The notes beneath the pieces were generated by a model. It had not been told where the DNA came from, searched no databases, and saw only the letters and a list, made by a program, of their open reading frames with translations. From Cymodocea nodosa (Eukaryota; Streptophyta; Magnoliopsida; Alismatales; Cymodoceaceae), in the NCBI GenBank assembly GCA_036874045.1, contig CM072341.1:1004501-1068500 (forward strand): a stretch of DNA of 64,000 nt, read 5' to 3'. A program made the position numbers and the translations under genes. Shown piece by piece: positions 17,713-49,467 of the stretch. The stretch's first letter is position 1. The number at the start of each line of letters is the position of its first letter.

Positions 17713-18273
17713 TCACGGGCTTCCTCCATGCGTACCATATCCAGAGCCATAACCGGAGCCGGACCCAAACCCAGACCCACCTGCTTGTCCACCACCTCCA
17801 CCGCCTCCACCGCCACCTCCGCTTCCATATGCACCATTCCCACCACCGGATCCATATCCAGACCCACTTCCCGAACCATATCCCGATCCGTTTCCATTGC
17901 CGCCACCACCACCACCTCCTCCACTCCCGTATCCCACACCACCATTACCAATGCCGGCACCATAACCGGAGCCTGATCCGTACCCGCTACCGTATCCGGA
18001 ACCACCGCCACCTCCTTGCCCACCACCACCGCCTCCGCCTCCACCTTGTCCGTACCCTACACCGTTTCCACCACTCGCTCCATAGCCAGATCCATATCCG
18101 CGACCATAACCATCCCCTCCCCCATTTTGGCCACCACCGAAACCATTGCCTCCACCACCTCCACCACCGCCTCCGCCCCCACTGCCATATGCGGAGAGGA
18201 TTCTAGCAGCCGAGGTCATGCCTAGGAGGAACAAGGCCACGAAAGCCACACCCACAACTTTAGAGCCCACCAT
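17713..18273 (-). CDS. Glycine-rich secreted protein (GRP D), 186 aa
   Basis: An intact frame whose first 23 residues (MVGSKVVGVAFVALFLLGM...) form a signal peptide followed by A-A-R-I-L-S-A-Y-G. The body is poly-Gly with G-Y-G-S-G-Y-G-S-G repeats and Asn/Gln-Gly blocks, and there is no intron. It belongs to a second subfamily, distinct from the MAR-S/F-type signal peptides of C, E, F, G and H; its only partner here is the truncated GRP I at 49216, in mirror orientation. A TATA box (TATAAGTA, complement of 18374-18381) lies 101 bases upstream of the ATG. A cell-wall or apoplastic structural role is inferred from the family. Confidence 0.88.
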   Translation of the reverse strand: MVGSKVVGVAFVALFLLGMTSAARILSAYGSGGGGGGGGGGGNGFGGGQNGGGDGYGRGYGSGYGASGGNGVGYGQGGGGGGGGGQGGGGGSGYGSGYGSGSGYGAGIGNGGVGYGSGGGGGGGGNGNGSGYGSGSGSGYGSGGGNGAYGSGGGGGGGGGGGQAGGSGFGSGSGYGSGYGTHGGSP

Positions 18274-18373
18274 GGGAACGAACGTACGTGAATTATTCGA
18301 TCAGAGAGATGGATGTGTAAGCAAATGGTAAGGAAGAGGTGATGGATATGGAGGAGGAGGAAGAGCGCACGGG

Positions 18374-18381
18374 TACTTATA
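18374..18381 (-). promoter_or_regulatory. TATA box of GRP D
   Basis: TATAAGTA on the minus strand, at the usual distance for a short leader, and exactly conserved in the mirror copy before GRP I (49108-49115). Confidence 0.7.
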
Positions 18382-20220
18382 GGAAGCGATGCATGACATG
18401 AACGCTTGCCTGCTGCATGTGATATATATTAATTATTTGTGTATTTGTATGCTTGCGTGTTGAATATTGCTTCCTTCCTTCACGACAACCTTTTCATTGA
18501 AAGAAAACAAACAACTTTGTTACCGATTTGGATTCCATCCGTTCGCATTTGACTCTGTACGCGCATTTGACTCACTACAAAAGTGATGATAGCGGATGGA
18601 CATACAGCGAAAGCTCCTTGACGTCAGTGCGTAGCTTCCGAGAAACTTCGAATCACAAGTAGTATAGTAGCGTGTGACGATTGGTATGTGTTGATGATAT
18701 ATATCTCCCGTATATATATGGAAATGCAATTGTAAAAAAAATGTAGCATATAATGCAACTTTTTTTGTTATCACGTTGATTTTTTTATTTTTTTTAATAT
18801 TCTAAATTTTAAAGAATTGTTTGGATATCGTACGTGGTTCTTGATTTTTGGAACTACTGTCACTTCTAAGTATAAATTGATTTTCGATTAAAGAAAAAAA
18901 AAATTCTCGTCCATGTTTCTGTTTTAAGTGCAACGAATGCAATCGACAACTATAATAAGAAAGTAATGCAAAATAAAATAAATTACTACAATTGACATTT
19001 GCAATAAATGAATGCAACTAATGGTTTCTTTGTTAGGAGCTTGAAAAAGAAGTTTTTTACAAACCTTTTGTTGATTTCCTTTTAGATGAAAGGTGACTCA
19101 CAGATTAATGATTTTATATAAACCATTTTGCAAAATGTCCATTTACATGAGTTACTTCGAGGGCGAAAGAAAATAAGAGAGACAAGTGAAGAAAGTAATA
19201 CTCTCTTTGGCAGCTATTACCATATCACCTCCTTCACATAGACGACAAAGAAGTTAATTCGTGATCGATTTGAGTTGAAATTTCATTTGCTCATTCACTT
19301 TTTAATTTGAATCGAAGATCAGAATAGAATAAGGTCAATTGTAAAGCAGTTTTCGAAGGATATCTCACGACAATTCTATTTGTGCATACTCTTGGTAGAT
19401 GAATTAGTTTGAGGGCGTAAATGACATTTGTTTCGTTGAAATTTTATCAATACATCAGAGACTCATAAAACTTTATTCTTACCAAGTTTTGTGAATTTTA
19501 ACAACAAAAATGATAGTTGAGGTTGGTTCCGTTTACCCCTTGTTGTGTTTGATATATTTTCCTTGATGATTAAATGTTGATGCATGTCATGATTTCTCTA
19601 GTTCAATACTAGAGAAGTCCCGTTTTATACTTATTTGATTATAGTGAAAGATTTTAAGGTAGACCATTGGATGTTGTGGTTTTTTCATCCTCATACATAT
19701 TGGAGAGATTTTCCATATGAATCTTGATGTTACTGTGCTTGTGGTTTACATTTGTGTTTTTGATCGAATTTATACATTGATTTCACCATTAAGAAGTTGT
19801 CAAAGGACCCATGGTTTTCCCAACAAGAAGTATTTAAAAGACTGATAAATAGATTGTATGGCTACTTAGTAATTGGAGGAGGGACACTGGATTTATCATT
19901 TTTGCAACAGCATTATGAGCAAGGGTGTTTTTGCCGTTACTAACATATTGCATCGAAGATTACTTCTCAAGAAATACTTTATTTAGTTTTTGTCCTCATA
20001 GAAAGCCATTTATCTAATTTCATTCAATGGCATGTCCTGTATTCTCACAATCTGTACGTACAAATATCTTAGAGTGTCTTGAAGCACTGTTTTTAGTTCT
20101 TATTGTTGTTATTTCTTCCTCTATCGTAATAATTACTTCTAGTGGTCTTAAATATATAATAAACAATCAAAAGTCTGCCTCATAAACAAAAAAAGTACTT
20201 AAGTTCATGTATAGATAGCG
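18382..20220. repeat. Left-arm non-coding DNA, inverted relative to 47840-49100
   Basis: Segments at 18400-18780, 18780-19580, 19600-19720 and 19800-19890 reappear in reverse complement and reverse order at about 48740-49107, 48180-48730, 47990-48180 and 47840-47910. A copy of the dispersed repeat is at 18500-18640, with a TGACGTCA palindrome near 18620. No gene is seen. Confidence 0.7.
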
Positions 20221-20298
20221 AAATCATCGTATGAAGTTTCGATTATATCCACCATGGCCATATCCGTAGCCAGAGCCAGAACCAGACCCATGTTGCAT

Positions 20299-20823
20299 TC
20301 ACCGTCCGTGGCTGCCACCACCTTCACTGCCGCCACCTCCGTCTCCAGCATGGCCGCCATTGCCAGCACCATATCCAGAGCCACTACCGGAGCCATAACC
20401 AGAGGGAAGCCCTAACCCACCATAGTTGCCGCGATCCCTTGCCTCCCATCCACTTCCATATCCAGATCCATACCCTCCGCCGCTTCCACCATGAGATCCA
20501 CCACCGCCTCCCCCACCTCCACCTCCTCCCCCGCTAGCGTATCCACTACGTCCTCCACCCTTTCCGTAACCAGAGCTGGAGCCATAGCCGCTTCCTGGTC
20601 CATGACCGGAGCTACCTCCGACACCACCTCCACCGCCACCTTTACTGTATCCACTCCCACGGCCAGAGTCGTATCCATATTCTCCTCCACGGCCACCATC
20701 ACCGCCGCCACCACCACCTCCTCCCCCATTGGCATATGCCGTCAGGACCCTAGTGGCAGTGATCATGCCAACACAGAGCATGATGAGAAGGGCGACGCTT
20801 AGAATTTTGCTGGACCGAGACAT
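20299..20823 (-). CDS. Glycine-rich secreted protein (GRP E), 174 aa, early stop near the C-terminus
   Basis: The likely start is the ATG at 20821-20823 (MSRSSKILSVALLIMLCVGM), because this aligns with the start of GRP C; an in-frame ATG 30 bases further upstream is in the leader of the siblings. Signal peptide, then R-V-L-T-A-Y-A, then poly-Gly with YGSGYG and SHGGSGG blocks. A TGA at 20299-20301 ends the frame after G-S-H-G-R. Beyond it the same frame still reads a family-type tail (GSGSGSGYGYGHGGY) to a TGA at 20224-20226, so one nonsense change removes about 25 residues. The truncated product may still be secreted. The TATA position upstream is degenerate (CTAGAAAT). Confidence 0.75.
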   Translation of the reverse strand: MSRSSKILSVALLIMLCVGMITATRVLTAYANGGGGGGGGGDGGRGGEYGYDSGRGSGYSKGGGGGGVGGSSGHGPGSGYGSSSGYGKGGGRSGYASGGGGGGGGGGGGSHGGSGGGYGSGYGSGWEARDRGNYGGLGLPSGYGSGSGSGYGAGNGGHAGDGGGGSEGGGSHGR

Positions 20824-21480
20824 TTGCTTGGTTAGTTCATTTGCTTGTGGCAAGGATGAATGGTGATGGATGAGCTGAGCTGGGCTGTGGAGATGGCGTT
20901 CTCAGTGGTATTTCTAGGACTTTGATGATTCCTGTGTGCTTGCATTCATTGGTGTGAAAATTTGAATCATTTGCAGTGGTAGGAGCAGTGAAGCTTGACT
21001 TGGAATCACGTGTTTGAGGCTGATTGAGATAAGATGGAATATGTAAGTCAAGGTAGATAGAGATGCATGGTTTTGCGGGCTGCATTTGGACTTTATGGAT
21101 AAGTCACTCTCATGTGTAGAAATACCTGGATGTTTCTGCCGAAGGTGGAGATTGGAATGCGTTGTAGGCATTGAATATATTACCGGAATAATCATATTGA
21201 AATACCCGCACTTATTGCTACACGGGTCCCATGCATCTACTGGATGAGATAAGGCACTTGGTCATTTGTTTGGTATTGACTTGACTTCTTTTAGTGAAAG
21301 GAATATTACCAAAGCTAACCACACAAGACTTTCCCACACCTTGCAATACCGTGTTGTCGTAAGCTTCCCTAGCCAACGTATTATTAGACGCACGTCTAAC
21401 TAAAGAGTTAGATAATGTTTGCATTATCTCTTTTTCTCAACGAAAATTGTTGTTGGTAGGCTTTCATTTTTGATCCATAT
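20824..21480 (-). repeat. 5' flank of GRP E, part mirrored at 47210-47460
   Basis: It matches the GRP C upstream block. The part at 21090-21370 (GAAATACCTGGATG..., ATTACCGGAATAATCAT) is found inverted at 47210-47460, where no GRP gene follows, so the mirror copy of GRP E has been deleted from the right arm. hAT-1 begins immediately after. Confidence 0.7.
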
Positions 21481-22091
21481 ATAGTAGATGTGTCAATTGG
21501 GTCGGGCCATTGTAGGTCGATTTAGTCCAACCTGTTATGGGTTGGTCCAACCCGATACAATTTAAAAAATTAGGTTAGGTTAGGCTATAATATATTAGAA
21601 AATTAACCTATAAGTTGGATTCACCTGGGGACAGATTTGGATCGGGTCGGGCTGACCCATGGGCCAATTTGAGTCGGGTCAGGCTGGCCCATAGGTCGAT
21701 TCGAGCTCAACTTGTATTAGGTTAAAACTTAAAAACGAACGTTACGAACATTGAAAACAACATTCGTAAAAAAAGTAAATGTTGAAACAACAGTAAAAAA
21801 GAAGAAGAAGTCTAAGCATTATTTCAATGTTAGTAAAAAATGAACATTGAAATAATGTTTGTAAAAAATGAACGTTGAAACCAACGGTAAAAAAAGGAAA
21901 AAAAGAAAAAGACAAGAGAAGGAATGAAAGAGAGAGAGGAATGGAGATGAAAAATCTATAAATAGAGAAGAATGTTAGAATTTTTTTCACAATTCATACT
22001 CATTCAATCTTCTCTCTTTCTTTCACAAAATACAAAGATCATATTTTAGGCTTCAACTTTCTTCAACTCTCAAGTTAGATTCTTTGCAAAA

Positions 22092-24106
22092 ATGGCACAC
22101 AACTTCAATGACTTCATCTTCAATAGCATTATCGATGCTGATGATAATTTTGAGTAGGAACAACAATACTCTCAAGTTTAAACTATAGAATAAGGTAGAG
22201 CATCGACTTCAACTAATACTGCTAAAACAAGAAGAAGGTCAAATTTATGGTCAAAGTTTACAATAAAGATGAAAGAGTTGGGAGATGGTACTATGGTGGA
22301 GAGGGCCTACAACAACATTTGCATTGCAGACTTTTCATACAAAGCTTTAGGTAGTACAAGTCATTTATCTAGACATGTAGTTAGTTGTTCGTTCAAAAAT
22401 CTTGAAAAAAATAAAATGATTCAAACACAACTTAATTTTAGCACTGAAGGTAATATAATACAATGACATTATAATCCTAGTAATGCTAGAGAATTACATG
22501 CTAAATTTATTGCTGTTCAAAATTTACCTATTAATTTTGGTGATAATCAACATTTTCAAGAATATATTTCACAAGCTTATTGTCCACGATTTAAAAAAGT
22601 TTCTAGAAATACAACTAGGCAAGATATTATTGAACTTTATAATAAACTTAGAATGGAATTAGTTAGTATAATAGGTTCTATTAACACATCTATAGCATGC
22701 ACATCTAATATTTGGGAGGGTAAAAGTAAAGCAGGATATATTGCTATTACTACACATTTTATTGATGATAATTGAGTTTTACAAAAAAGATTAATAGCAT
22801 TTAGAAGAATAAATCATCCACATAATGCTCAAAATATTTTTTCTACTGTTATGGAAATTTTTGAATTTTATGAAATTGAAGAAAAAGTAGGTAGTATTAC
22901 ATTTGATAATGCAACTATCCCTATGTTTAAAAGTAGATTAACTCCACTAAATGGTTTTGATTTATTTCACCAAAGATGTATATGTCATATAATTAATCTT
23001 ATAGTTCAAGTAGGTGTTGAAGAATTAAAACATTTTCTAGAAAATAATAGAATTGCATTAGGTTATATTTTATCTAGTGGTAGACGATAATAAGAATTTA
23101 ATCATGTATGTGATTCATTTGAATTATCACATAAAACATTTACAATGGATGTCTCTCATAGGTGGAATTCATTATATTTAATGTTAAATAATTGTTTACC
23201 TTATAAAGAAGCTATAAAAACTTATTATAATGGTAGAATAGATAATAGTACAACACCACTAGATGAAAATGATTTTGTAATAACTAATTGTTTATTGAAT
23301 TTTTAAAATCATTTTATAATGCAATAGAACATTTATCAGGAATATATTATTGTACATCTATTTATGCAATCCACCACTTATATAATATTGCAAGAGTTTT
23401 TAATAATTATAGTAATTATCCATTTTTTGCACCTATAGTTTTAAAAATGAAAGAGAAATTTTTAAAATATTGGAATAAAATACCTCTCTTATATACATTA
23501 AGTGCTTGTTTAGATCCTAGGACTAAAGTAAAAGTTGTTAAAAAAATTAATAAATGGAATACAAACTAGTTTAATTGTAGAACTTGATGTAACAATTAAA
23601 AATGTAGAAGAAAGTTTAAATAATATGTTTGATATGTATGTTATAAAATATGGAATACAACAACAAACACAAAATATGCTTTATTTTTCACACCATCGTC
23701 ATCATCATTAATAATTGATTATAGTTGATTTGATGATGAATATAGTGATTTTAATGTAATAAATAGGAAAGAATTAAATAATTTTAATAATACTAATCAT
23801 ACCTATTTAATAAGAGATAATCCTGATTTTCTAAATTTTGATGTAATAAATTGGTAGAAAATACAAAAACGCACATTTCCTATTTTATCATTAATGGCTA
23901 GAGATTTACTAACAATTCCAACTTCTTCTGTAGCATGTGAACAAACATTTAGTATTAGTAGTAATATATTATATAATAGAAGAGTATGATTAAAACATGA
24001 TATTTTAGAAACATTAATGTATGTTAAGGATTGGGAGCTTGCTCGTATTCGTGGACAACAACATAAAGATAACTTCATTGATGAATTTGCAAATTTAAAT
24101 ATTTAA
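22092..24106 (+). pseudogene. hAT transposase (BED-finger / dimerisation-domain type), multiply interrupted
   Basis: From the ATG at 22092 the plus strand carries a BED-zinc-finger remnant near 22240-22400 (ending T-S-H-L-S-R-H-V), a transposase core with conserved blocks around 22700-23080 (T-S-N-I-W-E-G, I-T-F-D-N-A, R-C-I-C-H-I-I-N-L) and the C-terminal hAT dimerisation motif at 23890-23985 (L-L-T-I-P-T-S-S-V-A-C-E-Q-T-F-S). Many in-frame stops (for example after 22464, 22772, 23087 and 23566) and frameshifts show it is inactive. It resembles the RICESLEEPER-like plant hAT group. Confidence 0.9.
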
Positions 24107-24379
24107 ATGTAATTATGTAAATTAAATGTAAATATATTTGATGTAATTACAAAAATAATGTAATTTTTAATTTAAATTTAGAAATAAAAAAATTATTTTA
24201 ACTTTATGACTTGTCTTTGAATGTGTTGATGGATGATGATTGATGAATTATGAATGGTTCGTTGATGATGTCTTGATATTGATATTAATGTGATGAATGA
24301 ATCATGACTTACGTTTGATTTTCATATATTTATAAATAAAATATTGTATTTGAATAATGAATTGATTATCAGATAACAT

Positions 24380-27070: not shown

Positions 27071-28845
27071 TATTCTTGTTTTTGGTTCAATCATAATTTG
27101 TGTAACCCTAGAAACATTGTAAAGAGAGAGAAGAGAGATACTATTTTCAACCCTTTGGGGTTCCACTACTATTAGGTGAAAAAATAAGAAATGAAGTCAC
27201 CATTTAGTACAATTCTAAGGATAAAATAGTATATGCAAATGCAAGTGAAGTAAACGACCTTCAAAAATATAAGAGTATGACCTTAAAAACTATAAATTAA
27301 TCTAGGTAAGTACTTCAAGTACGTATAAGCAAGGTGTTGGTCACCTCACAAGCTTAAATTACTTAACCTCTAAAGTTATCTTAGTTAAGTAGGCTAGTCT
27401 TCAGCATCTAAGGTTATGCGTTCTAAATGATTGCAAAGTGAGCTAAAGTATAACATAGAGAAAATAAGAGAAATGGGTCCATGGGTGCCCATATGAGATG
27501 AAATAAATGAGAAATAAGTGAAGATATAAGAATAAAAGATCCTAAGAAGTCTGGAAGAGATGGAGAAGTTGTGTCTTGGTTTTCCTTTCGTGTGTAAGTG
27601 TGATGTGAAAAAAGACAGCCTAAGTGCTTTTGCATGGTAAGCATGAATTCAAAATAAGTATTTCGAGACGGTCATTTTAAAATTAAATGTAGATTTTTAA
27701 TTATCAATGTAAATTATGTAATGTAATTTTTATTCATCATATGTAAATTTCTTGATAAATGATGTATCTTTTCTATAATTCATAAATTCAATAAATGTAA
27801 TTATTATTTCTTATTTAATTTAATGAATGATGATTAATACTTTTTTCAATATCTTTAAATAATAATTTGAATGTATGGTACAATATTGAGATTTCTTAAA
27901 GATTATGAAGTCAAATCTCATCAACTTACTTTAAACAAATAAAATATTTTTGAATCCCATTTGATCGCCCAACCCACACTCGATCGAAGACCTACATAGC
28001 GGCCCATACCGATGGACTTCTCCTGCTCACGTTGACCAACCCATCTGCATCGTGCCGATATGATAAGTAGAGATTGCACGAACAAATTAACGTCGTACAT
28101 GACATAACTAATTAGATTAATATTTACAACTTACTTCTATAAACATATAATATGTGAATAATGTTCATATGTATTCTTAGTAAACAATTCTATTTCAAAA
28201 TTTTAATTTTAATAAACACCTATATCCTCTTCAATTCAATATTGTGATCTTAAATATATATATAGATGTTTTATAATATAAGGAACCAACCCACAACTCA
28301 CTACAAAATTCAATCAGGTCGTTAAAATTCTATCCAAATAGGTGTGGTTATTACATTTGAATCGAATCATGTGTACTCCTAACAAAGTTTCATAAATACA
28401 TTTGTGTGCGATTAGATTTGTATAAAATATTATGATTTTTCACACAAGGAATGAGAGGTGAAGACGAATTATAGATCCCGTGCATTCGATTAACAAAGGA
28501 CTTATTTTCTGGAGAAAAAGGTATTTGCTTCGCATAACAAAATAATATGTGCACAGAATACAGAGATTGCCATATGCTTGTCTTTCACCAAAATTTGAAT
28601 TGATATTTATTATTTCTCACTTGAGACAATCATGTTAGACGTCTAAGTTTGAGTAAGATGCTCAATTCCTCAGTTGAGTTGGACACAAATTAACTAAATT
28701 AGACAGGATTAAACAAATACATAAGAAATAACAAAGAGAAGGTAAATTACTTCGACATGGGCGTCATGCACGCATACATCTCACAACCATTAAGATCTTT
28801 ATTTAATTATCATGTCAATGCATGTCGTAGCACGCAAGCATCTTC
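27071..28845. repeat. Left-arm non-coding DNA, part mirrored at 46200-46900
   Basis: 27380-27680 reads, in reverse complement, as 46560-46900; 28440-28845 reads as 46068-46450. Between them (27690-28430) is AT-rich DNA with a more GC-rich patch at 27960-28060 that could not be assigned. No gene is seen. Confidence 0.65.
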
Positions 28846-28851
28846 TTTATT
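28846..28851 (-). terminator. Polyadenylation signal AATAAA of GRP F
   Basis: AATAAA on the minus strand about 105 bases after the stop codon, conserved after GRP G and GRP H. Confidence 0.7.
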
Positions 28852-28955
28852 TTTTGTGTTACATACATAACATGAGATTGAAATTACGCCCCTGCAATGA
28901 AAATAAAGATCGATACAAGTATTTCCCATATTTGACCATCAAAAGAAGTGGAGTT

Positions 28956-29399
28956 TCAAGGGTAGTATCCACCACGAGCGTATCCGTGGCCGGAGCCCGA
29001 ACCAGACCCATATCCAGACCCACCGTGGCTGCCACCACCACCTCCTCCTCCGCCACCGCCTCCTCCAGCTCTAGCATAGCCGCCGTTGCCAACAGCATAT
29101 CCGGAGCCACTACCGGATCCATAGCCGGAACCACTTCCGCCATGAGATCCACCACCACCTCCACCGCCTCCACCTCCACCACCCGCGCTGGCGTATCCAC
29201 CACGTCCTCCAGCATGTCCGTAACCAGAGCCAGAGCCAGAGCCGTATCCAGATCCTCCTCCACGGCCACCGCCACCACCTCCGCCTCCTCCTCCTCCTCC
29301 TCCACTGGCATATGCCGTCAAGACCCTAGTGGCAGTGGTCATGCCCAAACAGAACATGAGGAGAAGGGCGACACTTACAACTTTTCCGAACCTCGCCAT
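28956..29399 (-). CDS. Glycine-rich secreted protein (GRP F), 147 aa
   Basis: An intact intronless frame. Signal peptide MARFGKVVSVALLLMFCLGM, then T-T-A-T-R-V-L-T-A-Y-A-S. The body has three poly-Gly runs separated by GSGYGSGSGSGYGHAGG, SHGGSGSGYGSGSGSGYAVG and SHGGSGYGSGSGSGHGYARG blocks, ending G-G-Y-Y-P. It differs from GRP G and GRP H at only a few residues, all in or next to the signal peptide and first Gly run. TATA box at 29479-29486 (minus), about 80 bases before the ATG; leader, promoter and 3' end are almost identical to those of G and H but inverted. Secretion is predicted from the signal peptide; wall function is inferred from the family. Confidence 0.92.
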   Translation of the reverse strand: MARFGKVVSVALLLMFCLGMTTATRVLTAYASGGGGGGGGGGGGGRGGGSGYGSGSGSGYGHAGGRGGYASAGGGGGGGGGGGGSHGGSGSGYGSGSGSGYAVGNGGYARAGGGGGGGGGGGGSHGGSGYGSGSGSGHGYARGGYYP

Positions 29400-29478
29400 C
29401 CTTTGTTTCTCTAGTTTTCAGAACGTCTTGAGAGAAAAGTGAGATGGCTGTGATCAGTTTCGGACCACATTGTTGGCT

Positions 29479-29486
29479 ATTTATAG
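29479..29486 (-). promoter_or_regulatory. TATA box of GRP F
   Basis: TATAAATA on the minus strand within CCCTATAAATAGCCA, exactly matching the elements before GRP G and GRP H. Confidence 0.8.
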
Positions 29487-30470
29487 GGTTTTCTTCCGTT
29501 CTTGCACCAATTTTTAACGTTGAAGAAAACCCACAGGAATCTTAGAATACAAACAGACAATAATATATATGTGTCACAACCTGGCCATATCGTCGAGAAA
29601 TAATAAATGAATATCTAATCATTGTGCTAAAGGTCAACACCATACCAACTTGCAAACTTAAGAAGCAATCGTGATGTCCCGTAAGTCAATAGAAATTAGA
29701 AAATAGTCCCGCTCTCTAGAAATCTGAAGGGCCAATCCGAATCTGTGCTGGTGGATTTTGACTGGAATTTGCTGAATAGACCTAATCTTTTCTAATTCGG
29801 AATAATGAGCGGTGAAGCTTGAGTTGGAATTACTTGTTGGAGGTATGAGTAAGATAAGATGGATGGAGTATAAAAGTGATCAAATACAAGACTTTGAAGT
29901 GAATAATAATAAATTAAAGTATTAGGTCGATGGAAATTGATTAACAAAATGTTAGGCAAATAAATTGCAATTGACTGTATATGGAGGTGCATTGTTTGTG
30001 GGTTGCATCTGTTGGATGAGTTTTGGCATTTGGTCATTTGTTTGGTATTCTTTACTTCTTCTATCAGAAGGAATGCCAATCCTCACCAGAAGACTCAGCT
30101 ACACCTTGCAATGCCGTGTTGTCGTCGGTGGATTTTTACTGAAATTTGCGGAATTAAATAATCTTCTCTATGTTCATGCAGCTAATCCCATCTCAACGTA
30201 ATTTTAGTATATCCACCATCCAAGCACAAGCGTTTAATTATATCAAATACGCAAATGAATCATTGAGTGGGATTTGGGCCATCCGGCGCTGGTGGAAGTT
30301 GTTGCTTCCATTACCAAACGGACGAAGTTCCAAAGGAATGACCCGTGCGATCCACTCCAGTTACCGTGTGTGTGACTCTTGAGTAGAGTAGTAGATTTTA
30401 GGGGTGAAATGACCAAGTCTTCTCATGGGATGGAAAAATTACATATCAACTAGTAAATTTTATTCTGTCA
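29487..30470 (-). repeat. GRP F upstream block, inverted copy of the plus-strand blocks at 33-45 kb
   Basis: In reverse complement, 29490-29770 matches 40540-40800 and 45150-45420; 29780-30110 matches 40200-40540 and about 44900-45150; and 30110-30450 matches 34085-34420, 33040-33290 and part of 39390-39500. It holds no gene. It is the inner end of the left arm of the palindrome. Confidence 0.8.
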
Positions 30471-35352: not shown

Positions 35353-37850
35353 TGCCTTCGAGGCGGACCATCAACCATGAGATCCAGTTGATGACGGATG
35401 GTGTTTTACCAAATCTTCCCCTCTACTAGTACTCTGTGTTGGAGAATGAGGAGATTAAAAATCAGATTCAAGAGTTATTGGACAAGGGAGTGCTCCGTCC
35501 AAGTACTTCACCTTGTTCATCTTCCGTGGTGCTCATTCCAAAAAAAGACAGAGGTTGGCGACTTTGTATTGACTATCATGCTCTCAACAAGCTTACAGTC
35601 AAGAATTGTTATCCATTGCCACAAATAGACGATATTCTTGATCAATTGAAGGTGGCTTGGGTCTTCACCAAGATAGATCTACGAAGTGGCTACCATCAAG
35701 TGCGGGTGAAGGAGAAAGATTCATGGAAAACTACCTTCAAGACAAGACAAGGATTGTATGAGTGGAGGGTAATGCCCTTTGGCTTGTGCAATGCCTCGGT
35801 TACGTTTATGCAGTTAATGAACAATGTGTTATGGCCATTTCTAGAGCAGTTTGTACTAGTTTACCTTGATGATATTCTCATTTATAGTGAGAGTATGGAG
35901 GAGCATGTAGAGCATCTTCGATAGGTGTTGGAGGTTCTATAGAGCAACAGGTTACATCTCAATGGGAAGAAATGTGAATGGGGACGTGATTGACTGCTTT
36001 ATCTTGGTTTTATCATTGGCAATGGAGAAATATAGGTAGATCCAACAAAGGTTTCAGTCATCTAGAAGTGGCTAGCCCCTACAAAGACAATCGAGGTATG
36101 AAGTTTCTTGGGAGCATGTTAGTATTTAAGGAAGTTTATCCATAATTTTTTAGTTATAGCAACCCTACTTCATTAGCTAACGAAGTTGCATCAAAAGTTT
36201 GTATGGGATCCACTAAGTCAGCAAGCTTTTGAGGAATTGAAGAGTCATATTTCAACGATGCTAGTATTGGCGTTACCAAGTCTCCAGCAACCATTTGAGA
36301 TAAATGTTGATGCATCAGGCCATGTAATAGGAGCAATTTTACTTCAAGAGGGGCATCCTATTGCATATTACTCGAAGCGGTTACAAGGTGTGCAACTTAT
36401 GTATTCCACATATGATAAGGAGTTTCTTGCATTACACCAGGCTATAAAACATTGGAGGTGTTATATCTTGGGGAAAGAGACAGTCATCCACATCGACCAT
36501 TGTCCACTTTAATATTTGCAATCTCAAAGTTGTTTGCAACAAACTCGTCATATGAAATGGATGGCTTATCTTCAACAATTTAATTTATTGTTAAAGTATA
36601 AGCAAGGGGGACATAATAAGCTTGTCGATTTTCTTTCTCGACCAATAGTAGTCCTTAGTAGTTTGGTTTGGTGGAAAGCCTTGCCAACAGAAGAGGTAGT
36701 GGCGTTGTATAAAGACGATGTTGATTTTTGTTTAGCATGGAAGGAAGGGCAATATCGACGACAAATTGGGCTTCATATTGTAGATGGAGTACTATGGAAG
36801 GGGCATCAATTATGTGTTCCTTATGGAGCTGATAGGCTACATTGGATACGTGAAGCCCATTCCTCAAAAGTGGCAGGACATTTTGGGGTAAACAAGACAG
36901 TTGCTCATCTCAGTCGATATATTCATTGGCCCCATCTAGCAACAGATGTGGCAAGATACATTCGAGGATGTGTCTTATGTAGTCAAGTAAAGCCCAATAA
37001 TAGGAAGATTGGAATGCATCTACCCTTGACGGTGCCAACACGACCATGGGATTTTGTTGGTGGTTTACCATAGACAAGGCGTGGACATGATTATCTATTT
37101 GTTGTTGTAGATCGATTCTTGAAAATGGTAGTGTTGTTGCCATGTAAGAAGTCTATTTCAAGGGCTGATGCAACTAAGTTATTTTTTCAACGTGTGGATG
37201 CATTTTGGACTACCCTCATTGATTGTGTCTGATCGAGATAGTCGATTTCTCATCATATTCTGGTAGTCCTTATGGGAGATGATGGATACCTCATTGAAGC
37301 GTAGTACACCATATCATCCATAGACAGTCCCAATAATCGGACGGTGATTCATCTATTGTGGAGTTATAATATTCGTCATCCAAAGACATGGGATGATAGC
37401 TTGCCCTATGTACAGTTTACATTTAATAGGGCATTTCATGAATCTGTGGGGAGGACACCTTTTGAGGTAACGTTGGGGTTTCTTCCTAATAGTCCACCTG
37501 ATTTTGAGTTACCTGTGGTAGGTGACGTTGTTCCGTCAAAGGCTACTAAGGCTTCCAAGGCTTGCCATTTTATAAAACATATTCAATCAATTCATCGACA
37601 TATTCAACAACAACTTGAGCAAACTCAACAACGATATAAAGACTAGCATGGTAAGCACCGAGTTCCTTCTAGATTCATTGAAGGAGATTTGGTATGGCTT
37701 CATCTAAGGCGGCAAAGATTGAAAGGAGTGGGTCATATGCTCAAACCACTACGGTATGGTCCATTTCGGATTCTACAAATGATAGGAGAAAATGAGTTTA
37801 GATCTACCAAGTTATATGTCAATTTATTCAATTTTTAATATCAATGACTT
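35353..37850 (+). pseudogene. gypsy pol: reverse transcriptase, RNase H, integrase
   Basis: After an R-R-T-I-N-H-E-I-Q-L linker, RT motifs run from 35436: V-L-R-P-S-x-S-P, P-K-K-D-R-G-W-R-L-C-I-D-Y and the catalytic YLDD at about 35861-35875, preceded by M-P-F-G-L-C-N-A. RNase H is at 36290-36640 (D-A-S-G, Y-S-K-R-L, Y-D-K-E-F-L-A). Integrase has its zinc finger near 36850-36990 (H residues and C-V-L-C) and a core remnant with a block W-D-D-S-L-P-Y-V-Q-F-T-F-N-R near 37390. Stops at about 35922, 36510 and 37071 and frameshifts disable it. No chromodomain is recognisable before the PPT. Confidence 0.9.
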
Positions 37851-38450: not shown

Positions 38451-38539
38451 AAGGGAGTTGTCATAGATCAGAAACTCCTAGAAATAAGTATGTATAACTT
38501 GTGGGAAAATTACTATTAGATAAATAGCTTCATCAAGGA

Positions 38540-39380: not shown

Positions 39381-40797
39381 CATTTTTGTGTTCGATATAA
39401 TTAAACAATTGTACTTGGCTGGTTGATATACTAAAATTACGTTGAGATGGGATTAGCTACATGAACAAAAAGAAGATTATTTAATACGGCAAATTTCAGT
39501 AAAAATCCGCCAAAGACAACTGCAGCAGCACAGATTTGAACTTGGACTGGCCTTTCAGACATTTAAGAGAGGGAGACTGTTTTCTCATTTCTATTGACCT
39601 ATGGAAGATGACGATTGCTTCTTAAGTTGGCAAGTTTGTATATTGTTGACCTTTAACTGGTATGACACAATGGTTAGGCATTCTTTTATTATTCCACGTG
39701 AAGGCCAGGTTGTAACACATATTATGTACCTGTTTGTATGTGGACCAAGAAAATATACTGACATTTCTGTGGGCCTTCTTCCACGTTAAAAATGATGCTA
39801 GAACGAAAGGAGGACGGTCATCAAGGATTGAGGAGTGCGTGTACGTGATACGCGTTGAGTTTTATAAAAGTCTTATAAAAGGGGTGAAAACTTGGATTTA
39901 TATAAAAATACATCCCATTCGAAATCAATTGATTTTGAATATAAATTTCATATACTAGTTATACTCAAATTTGGTTCATTCTATGATTGAAAGGAAAGGT
40001 AAGAAACGAGTCGAAGCTTATGTAATTGGAGTTTCTTAACCATCACTAGTGTAAGAAGCCGATGCATTTGTCAAGTGAATCAAAGCTCATGTATATTTTT
40101 CAAGTGTGAATAGATGAAAATCCAAATCTATGTACAAGTTTGCTTTTTCTTTTAAAGAAAAGATTGACAAATTCATCTCCCCAAGAGAAAAAGAGATGCA
40201 ATGGTGCTTAGTCTTCCGGTTAGCTTTGGCATTCCTTCCGATAAAAGAAGTAAATAATACCAAACAAATGACCAAGTGCCACAACTCATGCAACAGATGC
40301 AACCCACAAACAATGCACCTCCATATACAGTCAATTGCAATTTATTTACCGAACATTTTGTTAATCAATTTCCATCGACATAATACTTTAATTTATTATT
40401 ATTCACTTCAATGTCTTGTATTTGATCACTTTTATACTCCATCCATCTTATCTTACTCACGCCTCCAACAAGTAATTCCAACTCAAGCTTCACCGCTCAT
40501 TATTCCGAATTAGAAAAGATTAGGTCTATACGGCAAATTCCAGTCAGAATCCACCGGCAAAGATTTGGATTGGCCCTACAGATTTCTAGACAAGTGACTT
40601 ATGGTACATGATGATTGCGTCTTAAGTTGGCAGGTTGGTATGGTGTTGACCTTTAGCACAATAATTAGATATTCATTTATTATTTCTCGACGATATGGCC
40701 AGGTTGTGACACATATATATTATTGTCTGTTTGTATTCTAAGATTCCTGTGGGTTTTCTTCCACGTTAAAAATTGGTGCAAGAACGGAAGAAAGCCC
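39381..40797 (+). repeat. GRP G upstream block with the unoccupied hAT-2 target site
   Basis: It contains two successive forms of the GRP upstream unit (39381-39830 and 40540-40800), separated by DNA that mirrors 29780-30110. GTTAAAAA followed by TGATGCTAGAACG at 39785 is the intact counterpart of the site where hAT-2 sits (TGATGCTGGAAAG at 44436). A dispersed repeat copy (minus) is at 40030-40140. Confidence 0.8.
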
Positions 40798-40805
40798 TAT
40801 AAATA
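40798..40805 (+). promoter_or_regulatory. TATA box of GRP G
   Basis: TATAAATA, 86 bases before the ATG, in the context CCCTATAAATAGCCA shared with F and H. Confidence 0.8.
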
Positions 40806-40883
40806 GCCAACAATGTGGTCCGAAACTGATCACAGCCATCTCACTTTTCTCTCAAGACGTTCTGAAAACTAGAGAAACAAAGG

Positions 40884-41327
40884 ATGGCGAGGTTTGGAAA
40901 AGTTGTAAGTGTCACCCTTCTCCTCATGCTCTGCGTGGGCATGACAACTGCCACTAGGGTCTTGACGGCATATGCCAGTGGAGGAGGAGGAGGCGGAGGT
41001 GGTGGCGGTGGCGGTGGCCGTGGAGGAGGATCTGGATACGGCTCTGGCTCTGGCTCTGGTTACGGACATGCTGGAGGACGAGGTGGATACGCCAGCGCGG
41101 GCGGTGGAGGTGGAGGTGGTGGAGGCGGTGGTGGATCACATGGCGGAAGTGGTTCCGGCTATGGATCCGGTAGTGGCTCCGGATATGCTGTTGGCAACGG
41201 CGGCTATGCTAGAGCTGGAGGCGGCGGTGGCGGAGGAGGAGGTGGTGGTGGCAGCCACGGTGGGTCTGGATATGGGTCTGGTTCGGGCTCCGGCCACGGA
41301 TACGCTCGTGGTGGATACTACCCTTGA
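40884..41327 (+). CDS. Glycine-rich secreted protein (GRP G), 147 aa
   Basis: An intact intronless frame starting MARFGKVVSVTLLLMLCVGM (signal peptide, cleavage expected near residues 24-25), then R-V-L-T-A-Y-A-S and three poly-Gly runs with GSGYGSGSGSGYG and SHGGSG spacers, ending A-R-G-G-Y-Y-P. Its protein is almost identical to GRP F (inverted, 28956) and GRP H (direct, 45515). The gene lies inside the split hAT-2 element but with its own TATA box, leader and AATAAA signal, so it should be independently expressed. A cell-wall or apoplast role is inferred from the family and signal peptide. Confidence 0.92.
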   Translation: MARFGKVVSVTLLLMLCVGMTTATRVLTAYASGGGGGGGGGGGGGRGGGSGYGSGSGSGYGHAGGRGGYASAGGGGGGGGGGGGSHGGSGSGYGSGSGSGYAVGNGGYARAGGGGGGGGGGGGSHGGSGYGSGSGSGHGYARGGYYP

Positions 41328-41430
41328 AACTCCACTTCCTTTGATGGTCAAATATGGGAAATACTTGTATCGATCTTTATTTTCATTCCAGGGGCGTAAT
41401 TTCAATCTCTTGTTATGTATGTAACACAAA

Positions 41431-41436
41431 AATAAA
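41431..41436 (+). terminator. Polyadenylation signal AATAAA of GRP G
   Basis: AATAAA 104 bases after the stop codon. The 3' flank up to about 41645 matches that of GRP H and, inverted, that of GRP F. Confidence 0.7.
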
Positions 41437-42015
41437 GAAGATGCTTGCGTGCTACGACATGCATTGACATGATAATTAAATAAGAATCTTAATGGTTGTG
41501 AGATGTATGCGTGCATGACGCCCACGTCAAAGTAATTTACCTTCTCTTTGTTATTTCTTATGAGTTTGTTTAATCCCGTTTTATTTGTGTCCAACTCAAT
41601 TGAGGAATTGTACATCTTACTCAAAGTTAGACGTCCAATGTTTAACATCATATTGGAACTAAAAGTGATTGAAATGGTCGTAGGATCACGTACATAGAAC
41701 ATGTTCATTAAAGAAACAATCGTATGATCTAAAAGCGCAAGCCGAACGTTTCATTGCAATGTTTAGTCGAATGTTGTTTCAACGTTCGAATATTCAAACG
41801 TTTTAGTGTATGCAACGTTCAAGAGAGAGAAAGAGAGGGAGAGGGAGAGGGGAATTAAGAAGGTACGAAAATCTATAAGTAAAAGAAGATGATTAGAGTT
41901 TTCTTCAGAACTTATTTAATTTTCTATTTCTCTTTCACCAAGTATGTAAAGGAATCAATTTTATTTCAAGCTTTAGTTCACAAATTTCTTCAACTCTCAA
42001 CTTCCATTTGCATAA

Positions 42016-44011: not shown

Positions 44012-44427
44012 ATTATGTAAATCAAATGTAAAAATATCTAATGTAGTATTTATATCATAACAAATTATAATGTAATTTTAATTTCAATTCATAAATAAAA
44101 TAATTTATTTTAACTTTGTGACTTAGCATTTGAATGTATTGATGAATAATGACATAGATGTTAATGTGTTGATATATTTATAAATGAAATAATTTAATTC
44201 TTTTGTGTTGATAGGTTCATATTATGATTTAATTTAATATATTTACTAAAAATACATAAACTTTTAAAAATTTGCTTACTAACCTATGGGCCCAAGAATA
44301 TGAGCTGAGTCAAGCAGACTCTATAAAATTTTTAACTTTAACGGGCAAGCCCGACTCAACCTGCAGCTTACATGAATTTCTACTTTGTGGGTCGGGCCAG
44401 CCTAACCCCAACTCACTTACATCTCTA

Positions 44428-45428
44428 GTTAAAAATGATGCTGGAAAGAAAGAAGGATGGTCCTCAAGGACTGAGGAATTTTATAAGTCTTATAATAGGA
44501 GTGAAACTTGGATTTATATAAAAATACATCTCATTCAAAATCAATTGATTTTGAATTTAAATTTCATATAATGGTTATACTCAAATTTGGCTCATTCCAA
44601 GCTCAAGAAGCTTATGTAATTGGAGATTCTTAACCATACACTAGTGTAAGATGCCAATGCATTTGTCAAGAGAATCAAAGCTTATGTATAAATTTCTCAA
44701 GTGTGAATGGATGAAAATCCAAATCTATGTACAAGTTTGTTTGTTCTTTGAATGAAAAGATTGACAAGTTCATCTCCCCAAGAGAAAAAGTGATGCAATA
44801 GTGCTGGCATTACCTTACTCCAAGTCAGAGGTGCGTCTAATTAATAATACGTCCACTACGGAAGCTTACGACAACGCGGTATTGCAAGGTGTAGCTGAGT
44901 CTTCCGGTTAGATAGAAGAAGTAAATAATATCAAAGAAATGACCAAGTGCCACAACTCATCCAAACATTTTGTTAATCAATTTCCTTCCACCTAATACTT
45001 TAATTTATTATTATTCACTTCAAAGTCTTGTATGTGATCACTTTTATACTCCATCCATCTTATCTTACTCATACCTCCAACAAGTAATTCCAACTCAAGC
45101 TTCACCGCTCATTATTCCGAATTAGAAAAGATTAGGTCTATACAGCAAATTCCAGTCAAAATCCACCAGCAAAGATTCGGATTGGCCCTTCAGATTTCTA
45201 GAGAGCGGGACTATTTTCTAATTTCTATTGACTTACGGACATCACGATTGCTTCTTAAGTTGGCAAGTTGGTATATGGTTGACCTTCAGCACAATGATTA
45301 CTTATTCAACTATTATTTCTCGACGATATGGCCAAGTTGTGACACATATATTATCGCCTGTTTGTATTCTAAGATTCCTGTGGGTTTTCTTCCACGTTAA
45401 AAATTGGTGCAAGAACGGAAGAAAACCC
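44428..45428 (+). repeat. GRP H upstream block, continuing relic P2 after hAT-2
   Basis: 44428-44600 matches 39785-39960, the DNA after the empty site. 44640-44760 carries a dispersed-repeat copy. About 44900-45150 matches 40240-40530, and 45150-45420 matches 40540-40800. Together with 34085-34676 this forms one GRP upstream unit interrupted by hAT-2. Confidence 0.8.
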
Positions 45429-45436
45429 TATAAATA
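45429..45436 (+). promoter_or_regulatory. TATA box of GRP H
   Basis: TATAAATA, 86 bases before the ATG, in the same context as in F and G. Confidence 0.8.
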
Positions 45437-45514
45437 GCCAACAATGTGCTCCGAAACTGATCACAGCCATCTCACTTTTCTATCAAGACGTTCTGCAAAC
45501 TAGAGAAACAAAGG

Positions 45515-45958
45515 ATGGCGAGGTTCGGAAAAGTTGTAAGTGTCGCCCTTCTCCTCATGCTCTGTGTGGGCATGACCACTGCCACTAGGGTCTTGACGGC
45601 ATATGCTAGTGGAGGAGGAGGAGGCAGAGGTGGTGGCGGTGGCGGTGGCCGTGGAGGAGGATCTGGATACGGCTCTGGCTCTGGCTCTGGTTACGGGCAT
45701 GCTGGAGGACGTGGTGGATACGCCAGCGCGGGTGGTGGAGGTGGAGGTGGTGGAGGCGGTGGTGGATCTCATGGCGGAAGTGGTTCCGGCTACGGATCCG
45801 GTAGTGGCTCCGGATATGCTGTTGGCAACGGCGGCTATGCTAGAGCTGGAGGCGGCGGTGGCGGAGGAGGAGGTGGTGGTGGCAGCCACGGTGGGTCCGG
45901 ATATGGGTCTGGTTCGGGCTCCGGCCACGGATACGCTCGTGGTGGATACTACCCTTGA
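45515..45958 (+). CDS. Glycine-rich secreted protein (GRP H), 147 aa
   Basis: An intact intronless frame with signal peptide MARFGKVVSVALLLMLCVGM and a body identical to GRP G except for one Arg in the first poly-Gly run (GGGGGRGGGG) and a signal-peptide residue (Ala for Thr at residue 11). It has its own TATA box and an AATAAA at 46062-46067. It is the gene that belongs to the promoter unit split by hAT-2: the near promoter (44428-45514) is intact, while anything needed beyond that has been moved almost 10 kb away. Confidence 0.92.
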   Translation: MARFGKVVSVALLLMLCVGMTTATRVLTAYASGGGGGRGGGGGGGRGGGSGYGSGSGSGYGHAGGRGGYASAGGGGGGGGGGGGSHGGSGSGYGSGSGSGYAVGNGGYARAGGGGGGGGGGGGSHGGSGYGSGSGSGHGYARGGYYP

Positions 45959-46061
45959 AACTCCACTTCCTTTGATGGTCAAATATGGGAAATACTTGTA
46001 TCGTTCTTTATTTTCATTGCAGGGGCGTAATTTCAATCTCTTGTTATGTATGTAACACAAA

Positions 46062-46067
46062 AATAAA
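46062..46067 (+). terminator. Polyadenylation signal AATAAA of GRP H
   Basis: AATAAA 104 bases after the stop codon, in a 3' flank conserved with F and G. Confidence 0.7.
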
Positions 46068-49000
46068 GAAGACGCTTGCATGCAACGACATGCATTGACG
46101 TGATAATTAAATAAAGATCTTAATGGTTGTGAGATGTATGCGTGCATGACGCCCATGCCAAAGTAATTTACCTTCTCTTTGTTATTTCTTATGAGTTTGT
46201 TTAATTTGTGTCCAACTCAACTGAGGAATTCAACATCTTACTCAAACTTAGACGTCCAAATTTTAACATGAATGTCTCAAGTGAAAAATAATAAATATCA
46301 ATGCAAATTTTGGTGAAAGACAAGCTTATAGCAATCTCTTCATTCTGTGCACATATTATTTTGTTATGCGAAGCAAATACCTTTTTCTCCAGAAAATAAA
46401 TCATTTGTTAATCGAATGCACGGGATCTATAATTCGTCTTCACCTCTCATTCTTTGCGTGAAATAATAATTACATTTATTGAATTTATGAATTATAGAAA
46501 AGATACATCATTTATTAAAAAATGTACATACGGTGAATAAAAATTATACTACATAATTTATATTTACAATCAAAATTCTACATCTAATTTTGTAATGACC
46601 CTCTTGAAATATTTATTTTGAATTCATGGTTATCACACAAAAGCACTTAGGCTGTTTTTTTCCACTTCACGCTTACACATGAAAGGAAAGCATGGACACA
46701 ACTTCTCCATCTCAGCCAGAATTCTTAGGTTCTTTTATTCTTATCTCTTCACCACTTTCTCATTTATTTCATCTCATATGGGCACCCATGGATCCATTTC
46801 TCTTATCTTCTCTATTTTACACTTTAGCTCACTTTGCAATCATTTAGAAGTCATATCCTTAGATGCTGAAGACTAGCCTACTTAACTAAGATAACTTTAG
46901 AGGTTATCTCTTTTCACATATTAACTGTTATTTCTTGTAATGGACAACTGTACACAAATTTGGCTCGTTTACAATACCATTGGATGATCGAAGGAAAAGC
47001 AAGAATGAGTAAAGCTCACGCAAATGAAGTGCCCGCACTGGCGTTAGGTGTCAATGCATTTATCAAGTGACTCAAAGCTCACATACACTTCTGATTTGAT
47101 GGAAATCTAAAGCCATGTCCGTAATTGTTTATTCTTTTAGCGAAAAGTTTGACAAATCAATGTCCTCGAGAGAAAAAGAGATCATGCAATAGTACTGGCA
47201 TTATCTAACTCCAAGTCAGACGTGTGTGGTTAGCTTTGGCAATACTCCTTCCACTAGAGGAAGTCAAGTCAATACCAAACAAATGACCAAGTGCCTCATC
47301 CCATCCAGTAGATGCATGGGACCCGTGTAGCAATAAGCGCGGGTATTTCAATATGATTATTCCGGTAATATATTCAATGCCTACAGCGCATTCCAATCTC
47401 CACCTTCGGCAGAAACATCCAGGTATTTCTACACATGAGAGTGACTTAAAACCAGGTATTTCAATATATATTATGAAATATGGTTTGACTTGTGCTTTAA
47501 TATATATATATATATATAAGTGGAAGCAAGTTTAATCAATGGCGATATAAGTTCTAAAAGTGTGAATTTTTATATGTGATTTATGTTGACTTGTAATTCT
47601 GGATTTATCATGTGAGTTTCTAAAAGTATTATAATCATGCCTATTAAATTGAAGTATTTAATTCTGGATGGGGGAATTGAAAGGACAATGTTGGAAAGAG
47701 TTGCTAGGTAAGATCAAACAGGCCAAGATTAAGGAATGGGGCATCTAATCAAGTGAGTTTCTGTACATGAATTCCAGCATCGATCTACTCTTTGAGTGGC
47801 AACACTAAAGAGTCATGTATATATAATTTTTTTTTATCGTCCCTCCTCCAATTACTTAGGAGCCATACAATCTATTTATGAGTCCGTTAAATACTTCTTG
47901 TTGGAAAAACATGGATCCTTTGACGACTTCTCATTGGTGAAATTAATGTATAAATTCAATCAAAAACACAAATGTAAACCACTAGCACAATAACATCAAG
48001 ATTTTTATGGAAAATCTCTCCAATATATATGAGGAGGAAAAAACCACAACATCAAATGGTCTACCCTAAAATCTTTCACTATAATCAAATACGCATAAAT
48101 CTTGTCTTCTCTAGTATTGAACTAGAGAAATCATGACATGCATCAACATTCAATCATCAAGGCAAATATATCAAACACAACAAGGGGTAAAGGGAACCAA
48201 CCTCAACTATCAATTTTCTTTTTAAAATTGCTATCACTACGTTGCTCTAAAAATTCACAAAACTTGGTAAGAATAAGGTTTTATGAGTCTCTAATGTATT
48301 GATACAATTTCAACCAAACAAATGTCATTTACCCCCTCAAACTAATCATCTACCAAGAGCGTACACAAATAGAATTTCCGTGAGATACCCTTTGAAGTCT
48401 CCTTTAAAATTGACCTTACTCTATTTTGATCTTCAAGCTCTTCATAAAAACTTCTTTTTCAAGCTCATCATAAAGAAACCATTAGTTACATTCATTTATT
48501 GCAAATGTAATTGTAGTTATTTATTTTATTTTTCATTACTTTCTATTTATGGTTGTTGATTGCATTCGTTGTACTTAAAACTGAAACACAGACGAGAAAT
48601 TTTTTCATTAATTCAGAATCAACTCAAACATAGAAGTGACAGTAGTTCCAAAATTCAAGAACAACGTACGATATCCAAACAATTCTCTTAAATTTCGAAT
48701 ATTAAAAAAAATAAAAAAATCAACGTGACAACAAAAAAGTTGCATCATCGGATTCATATATATTACATTTTCTTTTACAATTGCATTTCCATGTTTATAC
48801 GGGAGTTATATATCATCAACACATACCAATCGACGTACTTGTAATTCGAAGTTTCTCAGACGCTACGCACTGAGGTCAAGGTACTTTCGCTATATGTCCA
48901 TCCGCTATCATCACTTTTGAAGTGAGTCATATGCGCGTACAGAGTCAAATGCGAATGGATGGAATCCAAATCGGTAACAAAGTTGTTTGTTTTATATCAA

Positions 49001-49107
49001 TGAAAAGGTTGTCGTCAAGGAAGGAAGCAATATTCAACACGCAAGCGTACAAATAATTAATATATATCACATGCAGCAGGCAAGCGTTCATGTCATGCAT
49101 CGCTTCC
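46068..49107. repeat. Right-arm non-coding DNA, mirror of 18.4-28.8 kb
   Basis: 46068-46450 mirrors 28440-28845; 46560-46900 mirrors 27380-27680; 46900-47130 mirrors 26400-26660; 47210-47460 mirrors 21090-21370; 47840-48180 mirrors 19600-19890; 48180-49107 mirrors 18382-19580. The mirror equivalents of GRP E, hAT-1 and the 25-kb tandem array are absent. 47460-47840 is unassigned DNA with an (AT)n run. No gene is seen. Confidence 0.75.
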
Positions 49108-49115
49108 TATAAGTA
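49108..49115 (+). promoter_or_regulatory. TATA box of GRP I
   Basis: TATAAGTA at 49108-49115, matching the GRP D promoter in mirror orientation. Confidence 0.65.
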
Positions 49116-49215
49116 CCCGTGCGCTCTTCCTCCTCCTCCATATCCATCACCTCTTCCTTACCATTTGCTTACACATCCATCTCTCTGATCGAATAATTCA
49201 CGTACGTTCGTTCCC

Positions 49216-49467
49216 ATGGTGGGTTCTAAAGTTGTGGGTGTGGCTTTCGTGGCCTTGTTCTTCCTAGGCATGACCTCGGCTGCTAGAATCCTCTCCGCAT
49301 ATGGCAGTGGGGGCGGAGGCGGTGGTGGAGGCAATGGTTTCGGTGGTGGCTCGGGTTATGGCTCGGGAAGTGGTTCTGGGTACGGTGCAGGAGCCTATGG
49401 GAGTGGAGGTGGTGGGGGAGGAGGAGGTGGAGGTGGTGGCCAAAATGGAGGAGTGAGTGGTGAGGGA
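49216..49467 (+). pseudogene. GRP I: mirror copy of GRP D, cut off by retroelement DNA
   Basis: Signal peptide MVGSKVVGVAFVALFFLGM and A-A-R-I-L-S-A-Y-G-S match GRP D. The Gly-rich body is shorter and ends with a G-G-Q-N-G-G block at about 49450. From 49468 the sequence is a gypsy LTR, giving a chimeric end and a stop at 49491. The 3' half of the gene is not found elsewhere in the window. A 91-residue secreted Gly-rich product is possible, but the gene is best seen as truncated. Confidence 0.8.

Follow-up and report, generated by a model that had tools for sequence, protein, structure and literature searches.

The best-known examples of large palindromes with near-identical arms and multi-copy genes lie on sex chromosomes, and are interpreted there as standing in for normal recombination; in the ampliconic palindromes of mammalian sex chromosomes, conversion takes place between the arms. 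Here we describe a structure of comparable build on contig CM072341.1 (hereafter C13) of Cymodocea nodosa, assembly GCA_036874045.1. It extends from a stretch of 64,000 nucleotides (the window, C13:1,004,501-1,068,500; "w" marks window positions, base 1 being C13:1,004,501) in which a cluster of genes for putative secreted glycine-rich proteins (GRPs) lies in mirror image. The mirrored unit of the window is an old sub-unit nested in a much younger, larger palindrome of ~181 kb.

The described system most similar in build comprises the consecutive palindromes W.P1 and W.P2, together ~200 kb, on the W chromosome of Salix purpurea, in which 20-kb stretches are inverted in four arms at >99% identity, with arm-specific indels and evidence for gene conversion (PMC7023750). 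The C13 array is like these willow palindromes in size, identity and the sharing of sequence among multiple arms. It differs from them in content, as the willow palindromes hold sex-determination candidates in a non-recombining region whereas C13 holds a GRP family, and in that its repeat unit is itself an older palindrome. Another mirrored plant gene family is found at the soybean I locus, where a CHS1-3-4 / CHS4-3-1 inverted repeat consists of two identical copies of 10.91 kb, separated by 5.71 kb, and is accompanied by silencing through small interfering RNA (siRNA) (PMC6710647). Both loci have duplicates nearby and are prone to non-allelic recombination, and the soybean locus is hard to assemble, as the one on C13 may be, but the arms on C13 measure ~72-74 kb and are nested. 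Silencing by siRNA stays on the soybean side of this comparison, and sex linkage, age and reproductive expression on the mammalian side; large near-identical arms and multi-copy genes are the traits C13 has in common with mammalian palindromes. In the one literature collection searched for large plant palindromes and inverted duplications, some hits concern sex chromosomes, and a search by title and start of abstract found no paper on a palindromic GRP array, papers beyond that collection not being covered.

A young palindrome around an older inverted duplication

With 1 kb of the window's left arm as probe, 15 matches are listed. The eight strongest all fall within C13:1.02-1.21 Mb and occur on both strands; two of them are the window's own copies, and of the other six, two are reported at 100%. 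Self-megablast of C13:974501-1234000 (259.5 kb with no Ns; pairs of at least 1 kb only, 149 rows including overlapping variants) delineates a palindrome of ~181 kb, with arms at C13:1,020,925-1,094,962 (74.0 kb) and C13:1,130,409-1,202,324 (71.9 kb) and a centre of 35.4 kb. Between these young arms, 245 of 64,882 partner columns mismatch (99.6% identity, summed over alignments of modules W1, W2 and so on, whose boundaries we set from the megablast pairs), and single modules are 98.9-99.96% identical. The young arms have the length (tens of kb) and identity (~99% or above) by which ampliconic palindromes are recognised. The pairs that build the young palindrome are as follows.

C13:1,045,021-1,088,751 / 1,136,668-1,180,408, inverted pair, 43.7 kb, 99.66%
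C13:1,029,932-1,053,961 / 1,112,854-1,136,883, inverted pair, 24.0 kb, 99.90%
C13:1,088,487-1,094,962 / 1,130,409-1,136,883, inverted pair, 6.5 kb, 99.7%
C13:1,032,856-1,045,024 / 1,186,584-1,199,144, inverted pair in two pieces, 6.8 kb at 99.1% and 5.3 kb at 98.2%
C13:1,020,925-1,023,755 / 1,199,480-1,202,324, inverted pair, 2.8 kb, 98.3%
C13:1,020,651-1,036,401 / 1,079,209-1,094,959, direct pair, 99.06%
w16425..64000, the window's share of the young left arm, which extends as far as C13:1,094,962 and has its mirror image at C13:1,130,409-1,202,324

Located by N-terminal matches (signs give the strand), the GRP genes run D- E- F- G+ H+ I+ F2- D- E- F- in the left young arm, F*+ I- H- G- in the centre and F+ E+ D+ F2+ I- H- G- F+ D+ in the right young arm, followed by J- and K-. 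The young arms mirror each other in gene order and strand for 9 of 10 GRP genes. Relative to the left arm, the right one misses 9.1 kb, which holds GRP E, and has 6.2 kb extra at one point. From D to J, the array counts 24 GRP copies in ~184 kb; some are not intact, I and I'' being truncated and the last D split up among shorter frames. The 6.2 kb found only in the outer right unit (C13:1,180,409-1,186,587) has short inverted ends and a few repeated border bases, and resembles a transposon, one inserted once the young duplication had taken place.

The first-pass annotation of the window had read 17.7-49.5 kb as a ~32-kb imperfect palindrome, to be seen in a self dot-plot as an anti-diagonal from 17.7/49.5 to 30.5/33 kb. 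The mirror symmetry is real. In self-BLAST, the greedy best chain joins six blocks of at least 200 bp, from w18130-29956 to w49350-44961, all inverted and in strictly reversed order, as had been described for the non-coding blocks, and no match of 100 bp or longer arose in any of 100 8-mer shuffles of the right arm. Identity along these old arms is 94.2% (225 mismatches, 118 transitions and 107 transversions, in 3,881 ungapped aligned columns) and ranges from 89.7 to 97.9% per block. A single axis with equal arms is not borne out: the continuous chain ends near 30.0/45.0 kb, the arms (11.8 kb on the left, 4.4 kb on the right) are separated by 15 kb, and the inner stretch w30117-30466 (350 bp) matches three separate places (34.1-34.4, 33.07-33.27 and 39.4-39.5 kb), so that no single axis emerges at 30.5/33 kb. 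For this reason the structure is better named an inverted duplication with unequal arms than a 32-kb palindrome. Nor does it end at the window, being a sub-unit of the ~181-kb palindrome, and its right end is a junction inside GRP I. Its features are listed below.

w18130..29956, old inverted duplication, left arm with its six blocks and GRP D, E and F, 11.8 kb
w44961..49350, right arm of the old inverted duplication, with GRP H and I, 4.4 kb
w18130-19057 / 49350-48446, block pair 1, inverted
w19314-19885 / 48434-47839, block pair 2, inverted
w21100-21325 / 47448-47223, block pair 3, inverted
w26389-26624 / 47137-46902, block pair 4, inverted
w27364-27810 / 46906-46460, block pair 5, inverted
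w28425-29956 / 46477-44961, block pair 6, inverted
w21326..26388, 5-kb stretch in the left arm only, probably an insertion
w47449..47838, right-arm site where the partner of GRP E is missing
w40197..41648, extra copy of the F/H segment
w17713..18273, minus strand, GRP D, a gene with a hydrophobic, signal-peptide-like N terminus and glycine-rich repeats (by eye)
w20299..20823, minus strand, GRP E, with no partner in the right arm
w28956..29399, minus strand, GRP F
w40884..41327, plus strand, GRP G, outside the right arm
w45515..45958, plus strand, GRP H
w49216..49491, plus strand, GRP I, truncated at a junction near w49461

The gene pairing proposed for the window is borne out: D has its mirror in I and F in H, and G, 94.0% identical to H, is an additional copy of it in tandem. 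The segment around G aligns inverted to the left arm (40197-41638 to 28635-30110, 93%) and directly to the right one (40349-41648 to 44961-46269, 92.6%). Each arm also has differences of its own, as had been noted: the left arm carries two further, smaller extra stretches besides the 5-kb one, and the right arm misses E. Within the 5-kb stretch, w22223-24239 repeats in direct orientation at w42123-44152 with 80% identity. At both levels, old and young, there is multi-block collinear homology in reversed order that includes non-coding DNA, as in inverted segmental duplication of a gene cluster. Mismatch is 5.8% at the old level vs 0.38% at the young one, a ~15-fold difference that, under a constant clock and ignoring homogenisation, may serve as a rough guide only to the ratio of their ages.

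The label GRP was given by eye from composition and a hydrophobic N-terminal stretch; the sequences fit, again by eye, the description of secreted cell-wall GRPs, with an N-terminal signal peptide followed by (GGX)n-type repeats, and in a Pfam search 0 of 7 GRP proteins matched any family at E up to 10. Because the differences between F, G and H are mostly synonymous, with nonsynonymous (dN) and synonymous (dS) divergence of 0.010 and 0.11 for F-G, 0.010 and 0.093 for F-H, and 0.006 and 0.084 for G-H, these proteins look constrained. The junction near w49461 (~49.46 kb) inside GRP I is an insertion or rearrangement; GRP I', a relative outside the window, continues past this point without it and is open for 367 codons. 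I' and J are long GRP I relatives (C13:1,111,996-1,113,126 and 1,205,006-1,206,121; stop-to-stop frames of 377 and 372 aa), whereas the frames of the window's GRP I and of I'' both end past that junction.

At the left edge of the duplicated unit lies a C-terminal Hsp70 fragment (w16131-16946; Pfam HSP70, 3.7e-37). By reading, a near copy stands at the matching edge of the second unit (C13:1,079,191-1,080,003), and the adjacent upstream sequence is Hsp70-like by eye. Retroelement remains in the window (w233-4020, 35430-37646 and 54302-55120) comprise copia-type parts (gag, integrase, reverse transcriptase) and another reverse-transcriptase element.

Mosaic identity among the units

Four units can be compared: U (C13:1,020,651-1,053,961), U' (1,079,209-1,094,959, partial), Ui' (1,112,854-1,146,216) and Ui'' (1,171,463-1,202,324, broken), in addition to F*, an extra F copy in the centre. 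Which units are most alike changes along their length. In per-module alignments, U and U' differ at 115 of 9,272 positions in W1 but at 3 of 4,812 in W2, while Ui' matches U' in W1 with 4 mismatches in 9,278. From ~1,029,932 to 1,050,500, Ui' follows U instead, with 4 mismatches over W2-W4a (3/4,811, 0/1,658, 0/3,281 in W3a and 1/5,337 in successive modules), and from ~1,049,500 to 1,053,000 Ui' and Ui'' have no mismatch in seven 500-bp bins. In a concordant-site permutation, the longest run of U'-Ui' agreement covers 243 of 293 polymorphic columns, reached in 0 of 2,000 shuffles, and the U-U' and U-Ui' runs of 42 were each reached in 1 of 2,000; the U-F* run of 3 was reached in 943 of 2,000, and the test is uninformative for the F* tract, which is nearly without polymorphic sites.

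The sharpest tract surrounds GRP F.

w25100..30100 (C13:1,029,600-1,034,600), homogenised tract around GRP F, 5 kb, near-identical in four array copies

F* differs from U at 9 of 4,811 positions (99.8% over 4.8 kb). In a wider alignment, U and F* have 4 differences in 5,000 inside the tract vs 179 in 3,250 in the collinear flanks (bins were summed by hand, with the tract edges picked from these data and the end bins 72/190 and 0/1 set aside); the flanks carry 1-17% differences per 200-bp bin, and differences jump at both tract ends. Within the same stretch, three blocks of old-level partners differ at 114 of 2,192 columns, and constraint therefore does not explain the near-identity, which suggests gene conversion or another recent exchange. 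Along the young arms, partner divergence averages ~1% in the outermost bins (0.1-2.1%) and is 0.1% or less in most inner ones, falling toward the centre with rho -0.66 over 67 bins, an extreme equalled in 3 of 66 circular shifts.

The arm-to-arm homogenisation that had been proposed for the window may thus have taken place in part. It is supported in the larger structure, rather than across the window's own old arms, by mosaic tracts and a sharp near-identity tract within collinear diverged flanks, a pattern that conversion or recent copying could each have left among the copies of this one genome.

Further GRP clusters in the genome

GRP relatives also form clusters elsewhere in the genome, with at least 129 matches listed after scoring 150 of 226 candidates. 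A second cluster lies ~0.8 Mb away on the same contig (C13:1.92-2.27 Mb), and the two clusters are ~70-83% similar in the stretch compared. Six of the 40 listed matches to a single 1.2-kb probe are ~1 kb or longer; they run on the plus strand at 1,923,992, 2,006,400 and 2,079,732, then on the minus strand at 2,120,334, 2,185,593 and 2,261,751. Two pairs sampled among them (36 kb of sequence) align inverted, one over 7.7 kb (96.0%) and the other over 7.1 kb (92.6%) and 1.4 kb (98.6%), with coordinate sums near 4.269 and 4.266 Mb and a centre near 2.134 Mb. This second cluster is mirrored where sampled. The first-pass annotation had called plant gene clusters mostly tandem, which fits C13 poorly, though other GRP clusters do look like direct tandems.

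On C16, nine short GRP-like matches (14,648,371-14,773,725, i.e. 14.65-14.77 Mb), all minus and ~15.64 kb apart, look like a very regular direct tandem array. It is multi-copy and can be assigned to the same broad family through a weak match, 58% identical in the part that aligns, but unlike the C13 array its nine copies share one orientation, and no mirror is seen in that stretch. Three minus/plus GRP-like pairs ~3.2 kb apart on C2 (26,498,149-26,559,983), plus one further plus match, are possibly another mirrored arrangement. GRP-like matches also lie within 24 kb of the starts of C4 (4458), C26 (18613) and C28 (23838); these may be short unplaced contigs, and hint at incomplete GRP regions elsewhere in the assembly.

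Proposed history of the array and its significance

We propose, with a probability of about 0.7, that the GRP array grew by recurrent inverted segmental duplication, followed by exchange between units that made them mosaics. We infer a tandem minus-strand GRP array at the outset, whose D-E-F block would have been copied inverted to give the 94% mirror pair D-E-F / H-I; later, H would have been copied in tandem into G, E lost from one arm, and transposons would have entered. Units of this old palindrome would then have been duplicated and copied inverted at a larger scale, yielding the ~74- and 72-kb arms and the rearranged 35-kb centre. Finally, ectopic recombination between units, by gene conversion or copying exchanges, could have homogenised long tracts into the mosaic copies observed. 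The outcome would be a raised GRP copy number with F, G and H proteins almost unchanged. What the sequence shows is the build of each level and the mosaic pattern; the succession of events and the molecular route, be it fold-back template switching, break-induced copying or unequal exchange, are put forward as the most plausible path to them.

Several points weigh against this history. Its order of events is not unique: at up to ~20 kb the identical tracts exceed the usual length of gene conversion, and they may in part stem from recent duplication or unequal exchange. A 54-bp stretch inside the F tract is present in F* and Ui' and absent from U and U', and therefore the four copies are not simply one recent copy. 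The centreward identity gradient is modest once autocorrelation is allowed for, hence suggestive only, and the innermost bin is diverged again (13/960). A single reading of the junction sequences found no common motif, and the structure is known from one assembly. In the second cluster, the pair 1,923,992+ / 2,120,334- has a coordinate sum of ~4.045 Mb, off the centre that the other two have in common, and perhaps marks a second one.

The main rival is misassembly, by which haplotypes or near-identical repeat copies would have been joined or duplicated in inverted orientation, leaving the chromosome without the young palindrome. An arm identity of 99.6% is within what alleles can show, assembly of GRP regions may be difficult (as the contig-start matches on C4, C26 and C28 might indicate), and public soybean assemblies were in error at the I locus (PMC6710647). 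Set against this, no Ns interrupt the 259.5 kb, the right arm has its own 9.1-kb loss and 6.2-kb insertion, and module W2b exists in five copies with divergence graded from 0 to 1.06%, which is not the picture of two haplotypes. Among the 25 longest rows per flank, the outer flanks lack the near-identical inverted match that a fold-back would need, and are linked by short direct matches (67-81%) and one 1.3-kb direct match (70%). The unlike flanks and the five-copy module make a haplotype fold-back less likely; the old level, at 94%, is in our judgement too diverged for alleles in most plants. Overall, we consider an artefact unlikely. A second alternative, less likely than not, is that successive recent duplications or unequal exchanges of varied sizes produced the near-identity tracts with no gene conversion between arms. 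Several tracts are long (9-20 kb), and the direct pairs U/U' and Ui'/Ui'' stand ~58.6 kb apart, which suits unequal crossing over; the F* tract, at just 5 kb with both edges sharp within collinear diverged flanks, bears the usual sign of conversion.

Two further explanations are considerably less probable. By analogy with the soybean CHS locus, the mirror might itself be functional, with hairpin or antisense transcripts feeding small RNAs that silence GRP or related genes. Several kb of inverted GRP sequence and the tail-to-tail neighbours I/F2, F*/I', F2'/I'' and D'''/J would favour this idea, and there is precedent (PMC6710647; PMC3804491). The window's inner pair, F(-)/G(+), is nonetheless head-to-head, with transcription diverging from the centre, and the tail-to-tail pairs are ~4-16 kb apart by open frames, so a read-through hairpin RNA is not an obvious product; moreover, the F, G and H coding sequences are open and constrained, as expected of expressed protein genes. 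A silencing role is thus possible but unsupported, and we regard it as improbable. The suggestion that this is an ordinary tandem family with single genes flipped by chance and no block duplication could draw on the many opposite-strand GRP pairs, which yield some inverted similarity. It was rejected, and we give it hardly any weight: the non-coding blocks are collinear in reversed order and keep specific partners, and the young level covers >70 kb including transposons.

The C13 array can be grouped with the large palindromic gene amplicons, among which its nesting is unusual. More tentatively, palindrome-on-palindrome growth could be normal for the GRP arrays of this plant, an inverted repeat promoting larger inverted duplications and exchange among units keeping the copies alike, more so near the centre; we hold this broader idea to be somewhat more doubtful than not. 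If true, two giant one-family palindromes on one contig that is not a known sex chromosome would mean that palindrome-based homogenisation is not special to sex chromosomes. The array also carries a warning, since gene counts and expression in such regions hinge on correct long-read assembly. A nested array of secreted-type genes with a second mirrored cluster on its contig would allow one to ask, in a plant, how inverted duplications begin, whether each primes another and at what rate the units homogenise.

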